Origin: Pseudomonadota bacterium
Lineage (GTDB): Bacteria > Pseudomonadota > Gammaproteobacteria > SURF-13
Length of the DNA: 36,436 nt
Assembly: GCA_027624315.1 (NCBI GenBank)
Contig: JAQBXX010000015.1
Span: forward strand, 1-36,436
Direction of reading: 5' to 3'
Part shown: in pieces, positions 2,500 to 33,617 of the stretch
Numbering within the stretch: position 1 is the stretch's first letter
Layout of the letters: each line of letters starts with the position of its first letter
Notes under the pieces: model-generated
What the model was told of the DNA's origin: nothing
Seen by the model: only the letters and a program-made list of their open reading frames with translations
The model's database searches: none
Position numbers and translations under genes: made by a program

Positions 2500-2660
2500 A
2501 TTAAGGAATCTCTGATTTATTCAGAGATTCCTGCGGCACATGGATGTGCCGCCATTTTTCAAATACGTAAGTATTTGAAAAATGAAGAAAAGCAAAAATC
2601 GCATTTTTGCTTTTCTTGCTCTGATAATTCCTGGATGGAATTATTCAGAGCTTCCTTAAT
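2500..2660. repeat. Structured dispersed repeat, copy A (five consecutive hairpins with terminal inverted repeats)
   Basis: This 161-bp element fills most of the 418-bp gap between cfa and hpf. It is bounded by a 16-bp terminal inverted repeat with one mismatch (ATTAAGGAATCTCTGA at 2500-2515 against 2645-2660). Inside are five back-to-back hairpins: 2504-2532 (12-bp stem), 2533-2552 (9 bp closing on GG), 2554-2583 (13 bp with a GTAA loop), 2585-2617 (14 bp) and 2618-2651 (7+7 bp with one bulge and a TGGAT loop). A second copy lies at 12559-12729; the central 87 bases are closely similar and paired positions change together. No protein is encoded. It may act as a mobile non-autonomous element, an RNA structure in the cfa or hpf leader, or a terminator-like block; the sequence does not decide. 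Confidence 0.85.
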
Positions 2661-11731: not shown

Positions 11732-12562
11732 ATGGCGGTTTACGCCATTGGTGACGTACAGGGATGTTACGATGAGTTGCTGGCGCTGCTGGAGCGCATC
11801 GCGTTTGAGCCCGCCGCAGACCGGCTCTGGTTCGTTGGCGACCTCGTCAACCGTGGGCCGCAGTCGTTGCAGGTGCTGCGCTTTGTAAAAGGCCTCGGCG
11901 ACGCGGCACTGTGTGTGCTCGGCAATCACGACCTGCACCTGCTGGCGGTGGCCGCGGGCCATGAACGCTACGGGCGCCACGATACGTTTCAGAATGTGCT
12001 CATGGCGCCGGATCGCGACGAATTGCTCGACTGGCTGCGCCGGTTGCCGCTGCTGCATCACGACACTGTGACGGGATTCACCCTGCTCCACGCCGGGTTG
12101 CCGCCGCAGTGGGATCTGGCGCAGGCACGCGCCTGCGCCGCCGAGGTGGAGGCGGTATTGCGCGGATCAGAATATCCCGAATTTTTAAGACAGATGTACG
12201 GTGACGAACCGCGCGTCTGGTCTGACGCGCTGCGCGGCATGCCGCGGCTGCGCTTCATCACCAATTGCCTTACCCGCTTGAGATTTTGCGATGCAGAGGG
12301 ACGCCTCGCACTGCACGAAAAGGGTTCGCCGGGCAGCCAGCCTGCACCCTACCTGCCGTGGTTCGAGGTGCCGGGCAGGAAGAGCCGCGATTTAAACATC
12401 GTCTTCGGCCACTGGTCGGCGCTGCGCGAGTATGCGGCGCAAGGCGTCCATGCGCTGGACACTGGTTGCGTGTGGGGCGGCAGCCTGAGTGCGCTGCGTC
12501 TCGACGGCGAGGAATACACGCAGGCGCACGTCGCTTGCCGGGCGCATTGCTCCCGATTCTAG
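11732..12562 (+). CDS. apaH: Symmetrical bis(5'-nucleosyl)-tetraphosphatase
   Basis: ApaH splits diadenosine tetraphosphate into two ADP and, in E. coli, removes Np4 caps from RNA. The 276-residue protein has the metallophosphoesterase signatures in order: YAIGDVQGC at the N-terminus, FVGDLVNRGP (about 34-43), LGNHDLH (about 69-75), LHAGLPPQW and, near the C-terminus, FGHWSALREY and ALDTGCVWGG. Length equals that of the E. coli enzyme (280). ATG 11732 is the conserved start. Its ribosome binding site is a run of eight G (11720-11727) four bases before ATG, a homopolymer whose length could vary. The usual neighbours ksgA and apaG are absent. The TAG stop (12560-12562) falls inside the terminal inverted repeat of the structured element that follows. 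Confidence 0.95.
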   Translation: MAVYAIGDVQGCYDELLALLERIAFEPAADRLWFVGDLVNRGPQSLQVLRFVKGLGDAALCVLGNHDLHLLAVAAGHERYGRHDTFQNVLMAPDRDELLDWLRRLPLLHHDTVTGFTLLHAGLPPQWDLAQARACAAEVEAVLRGSEYPEFLRQMYGDEPRVWSDALRGMPRLRFITNCLTRLRFCDAEGRLALHEKGSPGSQPAPYLPWFEVPGRKSRDLNIVFGHWSALREYAAQGVHALDTGCVWGGSLSALRLDGEEYTQAHVACRAHCSRF

Positions 12563-12729
12563 CAGTTTGTTGAAAAACTCTGTTTTTCAACAAACTGCGG
12601 TGCGGTACATGGATGTACCGCCATTTTTCAAACAGCCAAGTGTTTGAAAAATGAAGCACAGTAAAAATCACATTTTTTGCTTTGCGTGTTGAAAGAGGCC
12701 ATGGATGGCCTTTTTCAACAAACTGCTAG
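12559..12729. repeat. Structured dispersed repeat, copy B (hairpin series with 19-bp terminal inverted repeats)
   Basis: This 171-bp element exactly fills the gap between two convergent genes. Its ends are a perfect 19-bp inverted repeat, CTAGCAGTTTGTTGAAAAA (12559-12577) against 12711-12729, and both neighbours (apaH and the repeat protein) stop at the TAG inside it. Hairpins follow the same order as in copy A: 12562-12598 (17-bp stem), 12602-12621 (9 bp closing on GG), 12623-12652 (12 bp), a weaker one at about 12654-12686, and 12688-12719 (13 bp plus a G-T pair with a TGGA loop). The core 12601-12689 is closely similar to copy A at 2532-2618, while the ends are unrelated in sequence. It may terminate both genes. 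Confidence 0.88.
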
Positions 12730-27968: not shown

Positions 27969-29111
27969 TCAGATTAAAGATTTGTTGTTGCGCACAAACG
28001 GCGGCTTCACGACGCGTGCGGGGTGCAGTGTGCCTCGGATATCTACCGCCACGTGCGCGCCGGTGGCCGCGGGCACACGCGCCAGCGCGATGGCCTTGCC
28101 GAGTGTGGGCGCGAAACTGCCGCTGGTGATTTCGCCAGCACCAATGCCTTCGACGATGACCTTCTGGTGATTGCGTAATACGCCCTTGTCTTCGAGTACC
28201 AGCCCTACCAGTTTGCGCGCGACGCCTTGCGCCTTTTGTTTTTCCAGTGCGTCGCGCCCGATGAATTTGCGCGCGGCGGGCTCCCACGCCACCGTCCACT
28301 CCAGTCCGCATTCCAGCGGCGAAATGGTTTCATCCATGTCCGTGCCGTAGAGATTCATGCCCGCCTCGAGCCGCAGCGTGTCGCGCGCGCCAAGGCCGAT
28401 GGGTTTGACGCCTTGGCCCAGCAGCGCGCGCCACATCGCGGCGGCGTCTTTGCCCGGCAGTAATATCTCGAAGCCGTCTTCGCCGGTGTAGCCGGTGCGG
28501 CCGATGAAGATGCCGCCCGCGTGCGCGGCATAAAAAGGTTTGAGCTGCGCGGCCTGCTCGCGCAGAGAGTCGTTGGTCGCTCCCGGCGTCCTGCCTCCCG
28601 CGACATTAGCACGTCCGTGTGCGTCACTACCGGCCAGCACCTCATACACGCGTTCGCGCGCGTGGGGGCCTTGCACGGCAATCATGGCGAGCTCCGGCCG
28701 CTCGGTCACGGTGACGCTAAAGGCCGCCGCCTGCGTGTTGATCCAGGCCATATCCTTCTCACGCGTGGCAGCGTTCACCACCATGCGGAACCACTCTTCG
28801 TCCATGAAATACACGATGAGATCGTCGATCACACCACCCTCTGCATTCAGCATGCAGGTATAGAGCGCCTGATGTTGCTTCAGCTTGTCGACATTGTTGG
28901 CGATGAGGTGTTGCAGAAACGCGCGCACCTGCAGCCCACGCAGATCCACGATGGTCATGTGCGAGACGTCGAACATGCCGGCATCGCGCCGCACCTGATG
29001 ATGTTCTTCGACCTGCGAGCCGTAATGGATGGGCATGTCCCAGCCGGCGAAATCGACAATCTTCGCGTGCAGCGCCAGGTGTTCGTTATAAAGCGGTGTT
29101 TGGTGGCCCAT
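27969..29111 (-). CDS. gcvT: Glycine cleavage system T protein (aminomethyltransferase)
   Basis: GcvT releases ammonia and moves the methylene group from aminomethyl-lipoyl-GcvH to tetrahydrofolate. The 380-residue protein has the folate-binding fold with [35 protein letters not shown] and [15 protein letters not shown] in the expected order. ATG 29111 gives the normal [21 protein letters not shown] start; its ribosome binding site is weak. It is the first gene after the glycine riboswitch, whose terminator lies 20-70 bases upstream. An internal stretch near residues 165-185 ([18 protein letters not shown]) appears slightly longer than in typical homologues. The operon feeds one-carbon units that also serve ThyA, encoded elsewhere in this window. 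Confidence 0.97.
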
Positions 29112-29180: not shown

Positions 29181-29352
29181 CTCTGTCCTGTGACCTGAGA
29201 GATTGAACCCCTTCGGTGTCGGCCTGACGTAGGTCGGCCGAGCTCTCCAGAATATATGCTGTCTGCGCGGTCCTTTTGCCTGAGCGTTTCCGGGCGGTTT
29301 GCGCCGTCGGCGTCCGTCACCTGCAGTGGGTGACAAATCTCTCCCGCGAAGA
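29181..29352 (-). ncRNA. Tandem glycine riboswitch (gcvT element)
   Basis: The minus-strand leader of gcvT carries two glycine aptamers. The first begins CGCGGGAGAG (about 29350) and ends with CTCAGGCAAAAGGACCGCG (about 29285-29267). The second begins TCTGGAGAGCTC (about 29257-29246) and ends ACACCGAAGGGG, AATCTCTCAGGTCACAGGAC, AGAGGGG (to about 29181). The GGAGAG openings and the CUCAGG-CAxAGGAC closings are the conserved parts of this class. The two are joined by a short linker. Placement just before an intrinsic terminator and the gcv operon indicates an ON switch that permits glycine degradation when glycine is abundant, as in other bacteria. Confidence 0.93.
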
Positions 29353-29360
29353 TCAACGCT

Positions 29361-32682: not shown

Positions 32683-33435
32683 TTAGCCAAGGGCGCTGTT
32701 CAGCAGCTTAAAGGCCGCGAACAGCAGCACCAGAGCCAGTAAACGCTGCAAAACCACGGGCGGGAAACGGAAAGCACCCGTGTGAGATCCGAGGCCGCCG
32801 CCGAGGATGACCGCAACGGCGAGCAGGCCGGTCAGTGTCCCGTCGGGCGGCGCTTGCGCAGTCTGCGCCAGCAGGCCGGCACTGGAGTTGACGAAAATAA
32901 AGGCGGCGGAAACGGCGGCGGTTTTTTTGGCGTTCGCCCAGCCCAGCGCCAGCAGCAAGGGGCTCAGGAAGATGCCGCCTCCTATGCCGAGCAGGCCGGC
33001 GAGAAAGCCCAGCAACAAACCGACGGGCAGACCGATCAGATACAAGCGCTGTGGCGTGAGGTGGTCCTTGGCCGTCAGCGGACGGGAAAAGATCAGGAAG
33101 CGCACAGCGGCGGCCAACAGGGTAATGCCCAGCAAAATGGAAAAAGCGTCCGGCGACAGGTGCAGCGTGCCGCCTAGGTAGGCGGCCGGGATGGAAGTAA
33201 TGGCGAACGGTGCAAGCAGGCGCAGATCAAAATGCCCGGCGCGCTGATAGTGGAAAAACGCCAGCCCGCTCACCAGCAGATTCAGCGCCAGCACCGTCGG
33301 CACGATGTCCGCACGCGCAAAGCCGAACAGCGCGAAGAGGGCGAGGTAAGTCGAGGCCCCGCCGTGGCCCACCGAGCTGTACACTAGCGCGGTGACGAAG
33401 AACAGCGGAACCAGCCAAAGCAGGTCAGCATCCAT
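32683..33435 (-). CDS. TauE/SafE family permease
   Basis: A 250-residue integral membrane protein of the TauE/SafE family (sulfite exporter TauE-like), with about eight hydrophobic helices in two halves. The two family repeats are visible: FFVTALVYSSVGHGGASTYLALFALFG at the N-terminus and GFLAGLLGIGGGIFLSPLLLALG (about 141-163) starting the second half, with the GIGGG motif. Members export sulfite, sulfoacetate or other organosulfur anions, but many are uncharacterised; the substrate cannot be named. ATG 33435 has no strong ribosome binding site. It is upstream of the Fur-controlled fbpA on the same strand but has a separate 5' region full of small hairpins. A link to sulfur metabolism is a guess. 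Confidence 0.88.
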   Translation of the reverse strand: MDADLLWLVPLFFVTALVYSSVGHGGASTYLALFALFGFARADIVPTVLALNLLVSGLAFFHYQRAGHFDLRLLAPFAITSIPAAYLGGTLHLSPDAFSILLGITLLAAAVRFLIFSRPLTAKDHLTPQRLYLIGLPVGLLLGFLAGLLGIGGGIFLSPLLLALGWANAKKTAAVSAAFIFVNSSAGLLAQTAQAPPDGTLTGLLAVAVILGGGLGSHTGAFRFPPVVLQRLLALVLLFAAFKLLNSALG

Positions 33436-33460
33436 GTGCGAGATTTACCACGGCGGCAGC

Positions 33461-33559
33461 GTCACTCCTGCGCATCCATGCGACGTGCAGGGATGCACTA
33501 GTGTCACGGGAGGCAGGATGCCGGGAGTGACCGCCCGCGACATTCTCACATCCCTGTGC
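33461..33559. repeat. Cluster of four GGATG-apex hairpins
   Basis: Between the cytochrome c terminator and the TauE gene four short hairpins close over a GGATG apex: CGCATCCATGCG (33471-33482, GGATG on the minus strand), GTGCAGGGATGCAC (33485-33498), GGCAGGATGCC (33512-33522) and CACATCCCTGTG (33548-33559, minus strand). An 8-bp inverted repeat, GTCACTCC (33461-33468) with GGAGTGAC (33524-33531), encloses the first three. The same GGATG apex occurs in the structured repeats at 2500 and 12559. Confidence 0.7.
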
Positions 33560-33563
33560 AGCA

Positions 33564-33594
33564 TAAAAAAAAGCCAGCGGGTTAGGCTGGCTTT
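33564..33594 (-). terminator. Intrinsic terminator of the cytochrome c gene
   Basis: On the minus strand AAAGCCAGC (33594-33586) pairs with GCTGGCTTT (33578-33570) over nine bp around a seven-base loop, followed by a run of eight T. It lies 24 bases after the cytochrome c stop codon. Confidence 0.88.
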
Positions 33595-33617
33595 CAGTAA
33601 GGCAAAGTCGAAAATGA

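Follow-up and report, generated by a model that had tools for sequence, protein, structure and literature searches.

A 51-nt repeat, here called element B, occurs both within and between genes of gammaproteobacteria. We put the probability at roughly 0.52 that it is, as its sequence suggests, a mobile element presenting two CsrA/RsmA-type hairpin loops, which one CsrA dimer would bridge when a copy is transcribed. The element came to light through hairpins in the window, by which we mean the whole 36,436-nt stretch of DNA that was analysed.

GGATG Hairpins Are Parts of Two Repeats

An earlier note had reported hairpins closing over GGATG in three intergenic regions of the window, and this is confirmed. 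Of the 97 GGATG occurrences (both strands counted), 8 close a hairpin whose stem has 4 or more perfect base pairs, and all 8 are confined to those regions. Four of them, on the plus strand, belong to the two copies of an element A: GCGGCACA-TGGA-TGTGCCGC (2533-2552) and ATAATTCC-TGGAT-GGAATTAT (2624-2644) in copy 1, and GCGGTACA-TGGA-TGTACCGC (12602-12621) and AGGCCA-TGGA-TGGCCT (12696-12711) in copy 2. The four found in 33461-33559 have short stems (4-5 bp) and represent both strands. Two are the hairpins of a full copy of element B on the plus strand: hairpin 1, GTGCA-GGGA-TGCAC (33485-33498), and the apex of hairpin 2, GGCA-GGA-TGCC (33512-33522), below which lie an internal loop GGGA/GGGA and a lower stem GTCAC/GTGAC. 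The others are on the minus strand in partial inverted B-like copies, CGCATGGATGCG (33471-33482) on the left side and CACAGGGATGTG (33547-33558) on the right, the latter within a weak match to the covariance model of element B (33502-33562, 18.6 bits, E 0.014). When the surrounding 161-nt stretch is folded whole, the minimum free energy structure of either strand pairs the pieces with one another and shows no four separate apices; the 51-nt copy folded alone gives two hairpins. A terminator-like hairpin followed by a T run adjoins the region (33567-33596, minus strand).

To the window we added 20 stretches of the same genome, giving a sample of 425,189 nt that an in-house gene caller split into 51,764 intergenic and 373,425 coding nucleotides. 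The intergenic part contained 31, 25, 22 and 20 GGATG hairpins at stems of at least 4, 5, 6 and 7 bp, respectively, compared with means of 1.48, 0.34, 0.08 and 0.06 (maxima 6, 3, 1 and 1) in 50 dinucleotide shuffles, and the coding part contained 20, 5, 0 and 0. At stems of at least 6 bp GGATG ranked first among the 1,024 pentamers in intergenic DNA, the runner-up reaching 11. The excess that the earlier note had proposed to look for is thus present (22 against 0.08 at this stem length). It is a product of repeat families and not of independent hairpins: judged by eye, the cases with stems of at least 6 bp are copies or pieces of family A.

Element A

Element A is a multi-hairpin, MITE-like repeat of about 160-170 nt. 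Copy 1 (2501-2659, plus strand) has the ends TTAAGGAA...TTCCTTAA and five hairpins, and its predicted fold (2495-2665) has an energy of -84.5 kcal/mol (z -14.9) and the same number of hairpins. Copy 2 (12559-12729, plus strand) has the body of copy 1, with a match of 86% over 12601-12683, and different ends (CTAGCAGTTTGTTG...CAACAAACTGCTAG). As read from the sequence, both copies have inverted ends and an apparent duplication of TTAA or CTAG on both sides. One body thus occurs with two types of inverted end (TTAAGGAA.. and CTAGCAGTTTGTTG..), as if it were a cargo acquired by two transposon ends.

With copy 1 as the query, element A was found at 29 places in the genome, counting matches with at least 37 aligned bases; the remaining 36 of the 65 matches were short or arms of the same hairpins. 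Several copies end at or near the ends of contigs (C1, C3, C9 and C11 of this genome), and the repeat probably breaks the assembly, making the copy number an underestimate. The hairpin GYRCANGGATGYRC is common to elements A and B, and their agreement does not therefore count as two independent cases. Element A is probably a MITE of a DNA transposon that includes the same hairpin as element B. In Rfam it gave a sub-threshold match to RsmV (12.7 bits against a gathering score of 100, E 0.097).

Architecture of Element B

The 51-nt consensus of element B, GAC-GYRC-ANGGAN-GYRC-TAGT-GTCGC-GGGA-GGC-AGGAN-GCC-GGGA-GCGAC-C, comprises two hairpins, the first with a 4-bp stem and a six-base loop and the second with 5+3 bp separated by an internal loop. 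The full intergenic copy (33482-33532, plus strand) scores 80 bits with a covariance model of the element, R1, and sits between the inverted partial copies; its left flank recurs beside copies in other genomes (e.g., L057, L083 and L120). A second copy in the window (28575-28625, minus strand, 77.4 bits) lies in frame and in sense orientation inside gcvT, the aminomethyltransferase gene (27969-29111, minus strand; GCV_T, E 7e-83, residues 7-273; GCV_T_C, E 2.6e-20). A glycine riboswitch lies upstream of this gene (29258-29356, minus strand, 61.9 bits). Of the 39 matches that the model gave across the genome (E<=10), 18 exceed 60 bits, and most copies within the genome are near-identical. The ends of the element are (C)GAC ... 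GCGAC(C), forming direct CGAC repeats, and TAGT is found only as the middle linker. Most copies begin with GACG, in which the G is the first paired base, and 104 of 116 copies have a preceding C.

Single sense units are predicted to fold moderately better than shuffled sequences (z -1.4 to -2.1), and the complementary strand folds similarly. For a two-unit array, a rearrangement of hairpin 2 is predicted in each unit. For single-stranded DNA, two hairpins were also predicted for one of the two copies folded. At gathering score, Rfam reported the glycine riboswitch alone for the window and no Csr/Rsm RNA family, and no Csr/Rsm RNA was among the matches at E<=5 for 33400-33600. Permissive searches of this interval and of element A returned sub-threshold matches to unrelated families, along with that of element A to RsmV, and none to TwoAYGGAY, an Rfam motif. 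A terminator identity for element B was rejected because the element lies in frame within genes.

Several variants were observed. A second subfamily (GCTGYACANGGAYGTRCGAATGTCGCGGGCGCAGGACGCGCAGGAGCGACC) occupies five near-identical, intergenic-looking places of this genome (positions 1501-1551 of stretches L177-L181), and in a longer variant with about eight copies (L055, L057 minus strand, L071, L080, L085, L088, L102 and L128) a longer arm (..GCACAGGGAAGAGCG..AGCGAAGGGTYCTG..) takes the place of hairpin 1. At one contig end of this genome (C24; L175/L187), a copy is interrupted within its second hairpin by an inverted copy, so that element B has inserted into itself.

A Constant Loop on Covarying Stems

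Loop statistics were computed from 90 distinct copies of element B (131 were found, and 8 copies of the longer variant were set aside). Hairpin 1 is outside the search pattern bar its last base; its loop begins with A in 86 of the 90 copies and continues with N, G (90/90), G (90/90), A (88/90) and N. In the second loop AGGA (90/90), which was fixed by the pattern and carries no weight, is followed by T (48), C (30), A (10) or G (2). All four stem pairs of hairpin 1 are formed in 82 of the 90 copies, compared with a shuffle mean of 39 (maximum 50 in 1,000 shuffles). Among 49 aligned copies, pairs 5/16 and 6/15 of this hairpin have changed on both sides in 21 and 16 copies, respectively; the further pair types in that alignment were not significant (45 of 500 shuffles).

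A test free of the search pattern used 41 matches from 39 stretches of other genomes with lower-scoring matches, in an alignment made with the model and biased in its favour. Standard pairs filled 98.1% of the pair cells (84.2% when shuffled), 10 of the 12 pairs changed on both sides (5.3 when shuffled) and the covariation score was 0.441 (0.176 when shuffled); on each of five pairing measures, none of 500 shuffles was as high. The strict loop A(N)GGAN was retained in 37 of the 41 first hairpins and 29 of the 41 second ones. By eye, five of the 12 exceptions in the second hairpin have an A(N)GGA hairpin in another register (the second match of L221, and L225-L228), and four, from three genomes outside the class, read ACGAC and have no GGA. 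Either hairpin may have or lack the N: L185 and L186, both from this genome, have AGGAC in hairpin 1 and AGGGAT or AGGGAC in hairpin 2, the reverse of the usual order.

The earlier note had described a fixed apex, GGATG, on free stems. The apex is indeed constant and the stems vary, but the constant part is A(N)GGA, the T of GGATG being variable. The constraint acts on the nucleic acid, since in the usual reading frame GGA is a glycine codon whose third base is free, yet this A is constant. Wobble pairs are consistent with folding of the sense RNA: G-U pairs on the sense strand outnumber A-C pairs, which are G-T on the other strand, by 20 to 8 (P = 0.036), the direction expected if that RNA folds. 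The earlier note had also proposed that a protein or nuclease recognises the loop. Compensatory stems around a constant loop favour recognition of the loop. The hairpins themselves are parts of two defined repeats, of which element B inserts into coding genes.

Insertion into Genes and Mobility

We placed 14 distinct copies in this genome, those caught by a motif scan out of the 39 model matches, and found 9 in genes and 5 between genes. Seven of the nine intragenic copies are in sense orientation and in one frame (codons GAC GYR CAN GGA ...), adding 17 codons that encode a short, Gly/Ala-rich peptide. Their hosts, according to Pfam, are topoisomerase I (topA), tsaD, anmK, queuine tRNA-ribosyltransferase (tgt), a gene of the phosphoglucosamine mutase type (glmM), a Mur ligase and gcvT, and in all seven the domains match across the insert. 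The two antisense copies lie in an RNA methyltransferase gene and a P-type ATPase gene.

Element B is mobile, as the corresponding sites in relatives are empty: for tgt in 5 of 5 relatives, for gcvT in 4 of 4 relatives with a gcvT match and for glmM in the 3 relatives shown. The glmM comparison leaves out the relative G003, whose gene (L191) falls outside the alignment window. The filled tgt gene has 1164 nt and that of G002, G003 and G004 has 1113 nt, the difference of 51 nt being located at one point. This insertion shows no target duplication of at least 3 nt; the net gain is 51 nt and the placement of one base is ambiguous; the neighbours of the gcvT and glmM insertions are too diverged for such a reading.

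Across genomes, intragenic copies are more often sense (51) than antisense (19; P = 1.7e-4), and 43 of the 51 sense copies are in one frame. The bias may be driven by the peptide, given that one frame dominates. Between genes, 6 copies share the orientation of both neighbours and 9 are opposed to both (P = 0.61). These counts class 101 of 117 copies, with 13 later units of tandem arrays, 2 copies at edges and 1 with a repeated flank dropped. Gene calls came from two in-house heuristics and some are wrong (e.g., L057 and L084, where two copies lie in one very long ORF); the stricter heuristic gave 36 sense copies in frame 0, 3 in another sense frame and 10 antisense, leaving many copies unassigned. 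We saw no sign that sense copies are maintained at the level of the host, damaged loops being too few for a comparison of sense with antisense. The many antisense copies, together with the intergenic ones that show no orientation bias, suggest selection on the element itself, through its RNA or its mobility, rather than on the regulation of each host gene.

Distribution

An exact scan with one genome per species recovered 99 stretches, nearly all labelled gammaproteobacterial, and the carriers include Rhodanobacter, Nitrosomonas eutropha, Methylomonas lenta and Thiohalophilus thiocyanatoxydans. Among 274 genomes sampled from the class, at least 59 carry element B, and in a sample of the phylum at least 13 of 398 do, both counts being lower bounds owing to stricter filters; 6 of these 13 are outside the class, all from one family. 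Rhodanobacter-type genomes contain tandem arrays with a 51-nt period. In three of their stretches, arrays of 3, 2 and 2 units (L067 340-492, L069 and L106) lie in frame in gcvT, a gene named by eye through its likeness to the protein in the window, at a site other than that of the window copy, so that gcvT has been hit at least twice.

The exact 21-nt pattern of element B was absent from viral contigs, and blastn of one copy matched none of 50,697 phage records and 1 of 72,556 plasmid records. The latter is a Lonsdalea populi plasmid, with the copy lying antisense in a DNA primase gene. With no phage match and a single plasmid match, carriage by phages or plasmids was rejected.

CsrA as a Candidate Recogniser of the Loops

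In PMC7652899, the SELEX consensus of CsrA is RUACARGGAUGU, with mostly four or fewer contiguous pairs and six-base loops in 44 of 55 ligands; RsmE is described as recognising an ANGGAN hexaloop, and one CsrA dimer as bridging sites 10-63 nt apart, best above 18 nt. The sites of CsrB are given as CAGGA(U/A/C)G in PMC5027483. The loops of element B fit the CsrA/RsmA core, A(N)GGA with GGA in a hairpin loop: hairpin 1 has an ANGGAN loop on a 4-bp stem, and hairpin 2 reads CAGGA(T/C/A)G. The GGA triplets occupy positions 10-12 and 35-37 of the 51-nt unit, and the 22 nt between them fall inside the bridging range. This genome has one csrA gene, whose product is near-identical over residues 1-56 to solved CsrA chains (E 3.9e-26), with L4 and R44 present.

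In the class sample, csrA was found in 235 of 274 genomes, comprising 56 of the 59 B-positive and 179 of the 215 B-negative ones (Fisher P = 0.021), an association confounded by lineage. The three B-positive genomes with no csrA match are G104, G127 and G260 (73%, 95% and 89% complete, respectively); G104 has 6 matches to element B, and the loops are intact in both copies read (L234 and L235). Taken together, the match in loop, stem and spacing, the presence and association of csrA and the excess of G-U pairs make CsrA/RsmA, an RNA-binding protein absent from the earlier note, the best candidate for a protein that would recognise the loop.

We propose that element B is a short, non-autonomous mobile palindromic element whose sense RNA would fold into two hairpins with putative CsrA/RsmA loops. 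On a transcribed copy, one CsrA dimer may bind and bridge both loops. Each sense copy would then likely be a putative CsrA site planted in an mRNA, and all transcribed copies together would likely add to a CsrA-titrating pool. Many copies would not show their loops on an mRNA, since 19 of the 70 copies inside genes run antisense, and the one at 33482-33532 does so relative to both of its neighbours.

More tentatively, and as something we would not quite bet on, element B may be built around a bivalent putative CsrA site and seed tandem arrays and the transcripts of core genes, among them topA, glmM, tsaD and tgt, with ready-made hairpins, the selfish repeat and the global regulator shaping each other. 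In B-rich genomes the transcribed copies could then soak up CsrA as a dispersed sponge, supplementing or replacing CsrB-type RNAs.

Alternative Explanations

The loops could instead be the site of a mobilising enzyme acting on single-stranded DNA, either a Y1/HUH enzyme such as a RAYT working in trans or some other, and the likeness to CsrA sites a convergence; we consider this unlikely, albeit a serious contender. The earlier note had suggested a search for a REP-associated tyrosine transposase. Four Y1_Tnp genes are indeed present in this genome, but no GGATG hairpin or copy of element B lies beside them at any of the four loci (about 1.5 kb on each side, 3.3 kb per locus). Each of these genes is flanked by a repeat type of its own (e.g., TAAAGGGGACGCTACCC and GTAGGATGGGTTGAGCG..), unlike A and B. 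A local RAYT/REP origin was rejected given these loci, a trans-acting enzyme being still compatible with them. In the class sample, Y1_Tnp was detected in 54 of the 59 genomes with element B and in 132 of the 215 without it (Fisher P = 3.3e-6), an association stronger than that with csrA (P = 0.021) that may nevertheless track genome size and lineage. It is also broken in five of the 59 B-positive genomes, which have no Y1 match, one of them (G242, 99% complete) with 15 matches to element B.

Insertion of the IS200/IS605 type is not known to leave a target duplication, and the absence at tgt of a visible duplication of 3 nt or more is in line with it, as are the DNA strands of one of the two folded copies, which are also predicted to form two hairpins, and the unbiased orientation between genes. 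Against an enzyme acting on DNA, the free bases of the loop (ANGGAN, with an optional N) fit a known RNA-protein rule, and G-U pairs exceed A-C pairs by 20:8.

That the loops are kept for structure, or by an RNA-binding protein or nuclease other than CsrA, with element B neutral or mildly selfish like the Rickettsia palindromic elements, strikes us as improbable. Similar in-frame palindromic repeats with no known role are described in PMC3733652 and PMC10969869, the peptide encoded by in-frame copies is short and consists largely of Gly and Ala, and 3 of the 59 B-positive genomes have no csrA match; yet the loop fits the CsrA consensus in its A, its optional N, its GGA and the free base that follows, and the stem and the loop length fit as well. 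Ordinary copying of a repeat, in which likeness would come from recent copies and recognition would be unneeded, agrees with the near-identity of most copies in this genome and with a hairpin common to A and B, which need not be independent, but is highly improbable in view of the 41 distant copies, where A(N)GGA is constant amid diverged stems, linkers and internal loops and compensatory change.

Significance

Palindromic elements lying in frame within bacterial genes have a history that goes back to those of Rickettsia, and we know of no molecular partner for them. If the loops of element B prove to be sites for CsrA, such elements would at once have a partner and a role open to testing. The binding of CsrA deep inside coding regions, reported in PMC7652899, would then also gain a possible mobile source in these lineages. 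Because its stems are compensatory, its two loop forms are interchangeable and its empty sites are clean, element B also offers a convenient natural experiment for asking what is retained in a repeat, and for what reason. Should the partner be something other than CsrA, element B, for which our searches of the open-access literature gave no earlier record, still matters for annotation, being present in at least 59 of 274 gammaproteobacterial genomes. The earlier note knew of no function assigned to such hairpins, and in open-access publications we found no description of element B or of its pairing with CsrA.

Comparison with Known Systems

Element A resembles the MITEs of IS5-like transposons in its inverted ends and in the apparent TTAA/CTAG duplication at both window copies, YTAR duplications being linked to IS5; it differs in that unlike ends flank the same body in the two copies. 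Element B does not resemble MITEs, having direct CGAC ends in place of terminal inverted repeats and, at tgt, no duplication that reaches 3 nt.

Like GTAG-type REPs, element B consists of dispersed palindromes with variable, covarying stems, and Y1_Tnp genes are present in this genome; it lacks the GTAG tag at the foot of the hairpin and, in contrast to GTAG REPs moved by RAYTs, has no copies beside the four Y1 genes. The Rickettsia palindromic elements share with it the in-frame insertion into ORFs of conserved proteins (seven sense hosts here, three with empty sites). They and the CGTC-tagged REPs are short palindromes with many copies inside ORFs and in frame (Di Nocera et al. 2013, PMC3733652). 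The GAC(G) end of element B is (C)GTC on the other strand, recalling the CGTC tag, and the same paper states that no dedicated transposase is known for CGTC REPs. It gives these REPs a single 8-9 bp stem, the first two pairs of which are A-T, and a loop of 4-5 bases, whereas the two hairpins of element B have A(N)GGA loops and stems of 4 and 5+3 bp. The body text of PMC3733652 mentions neither GGATG nor CsrA.

The CsrA/RsmA hairpins of CsrB, RsmY/RsmZ and hcnA resemble element B in being short hairpins with the loop GGA, A(N)GGA or CAGGA(U/A/C)G and in having several sites per RNA at bridging distance. They differ in being host sRNAs or mRNA leaders, whereas element B is a dispersed repeat found mostly inside coding genes; by Rfam (the window and 33400-33600), it is no member of the described Csr/Rsm sRNA families. 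We therefore file element B, by its in-frame insertion, with mobile palindromes of the Rickettsia/CGTC-REP type, although it is neither a CGTC REP, to judge by stem and loop, nor a GTAG REP, to judge by the tag. The new reading that we propose is a gene-invading repeat paired with a CsrA-type loop.
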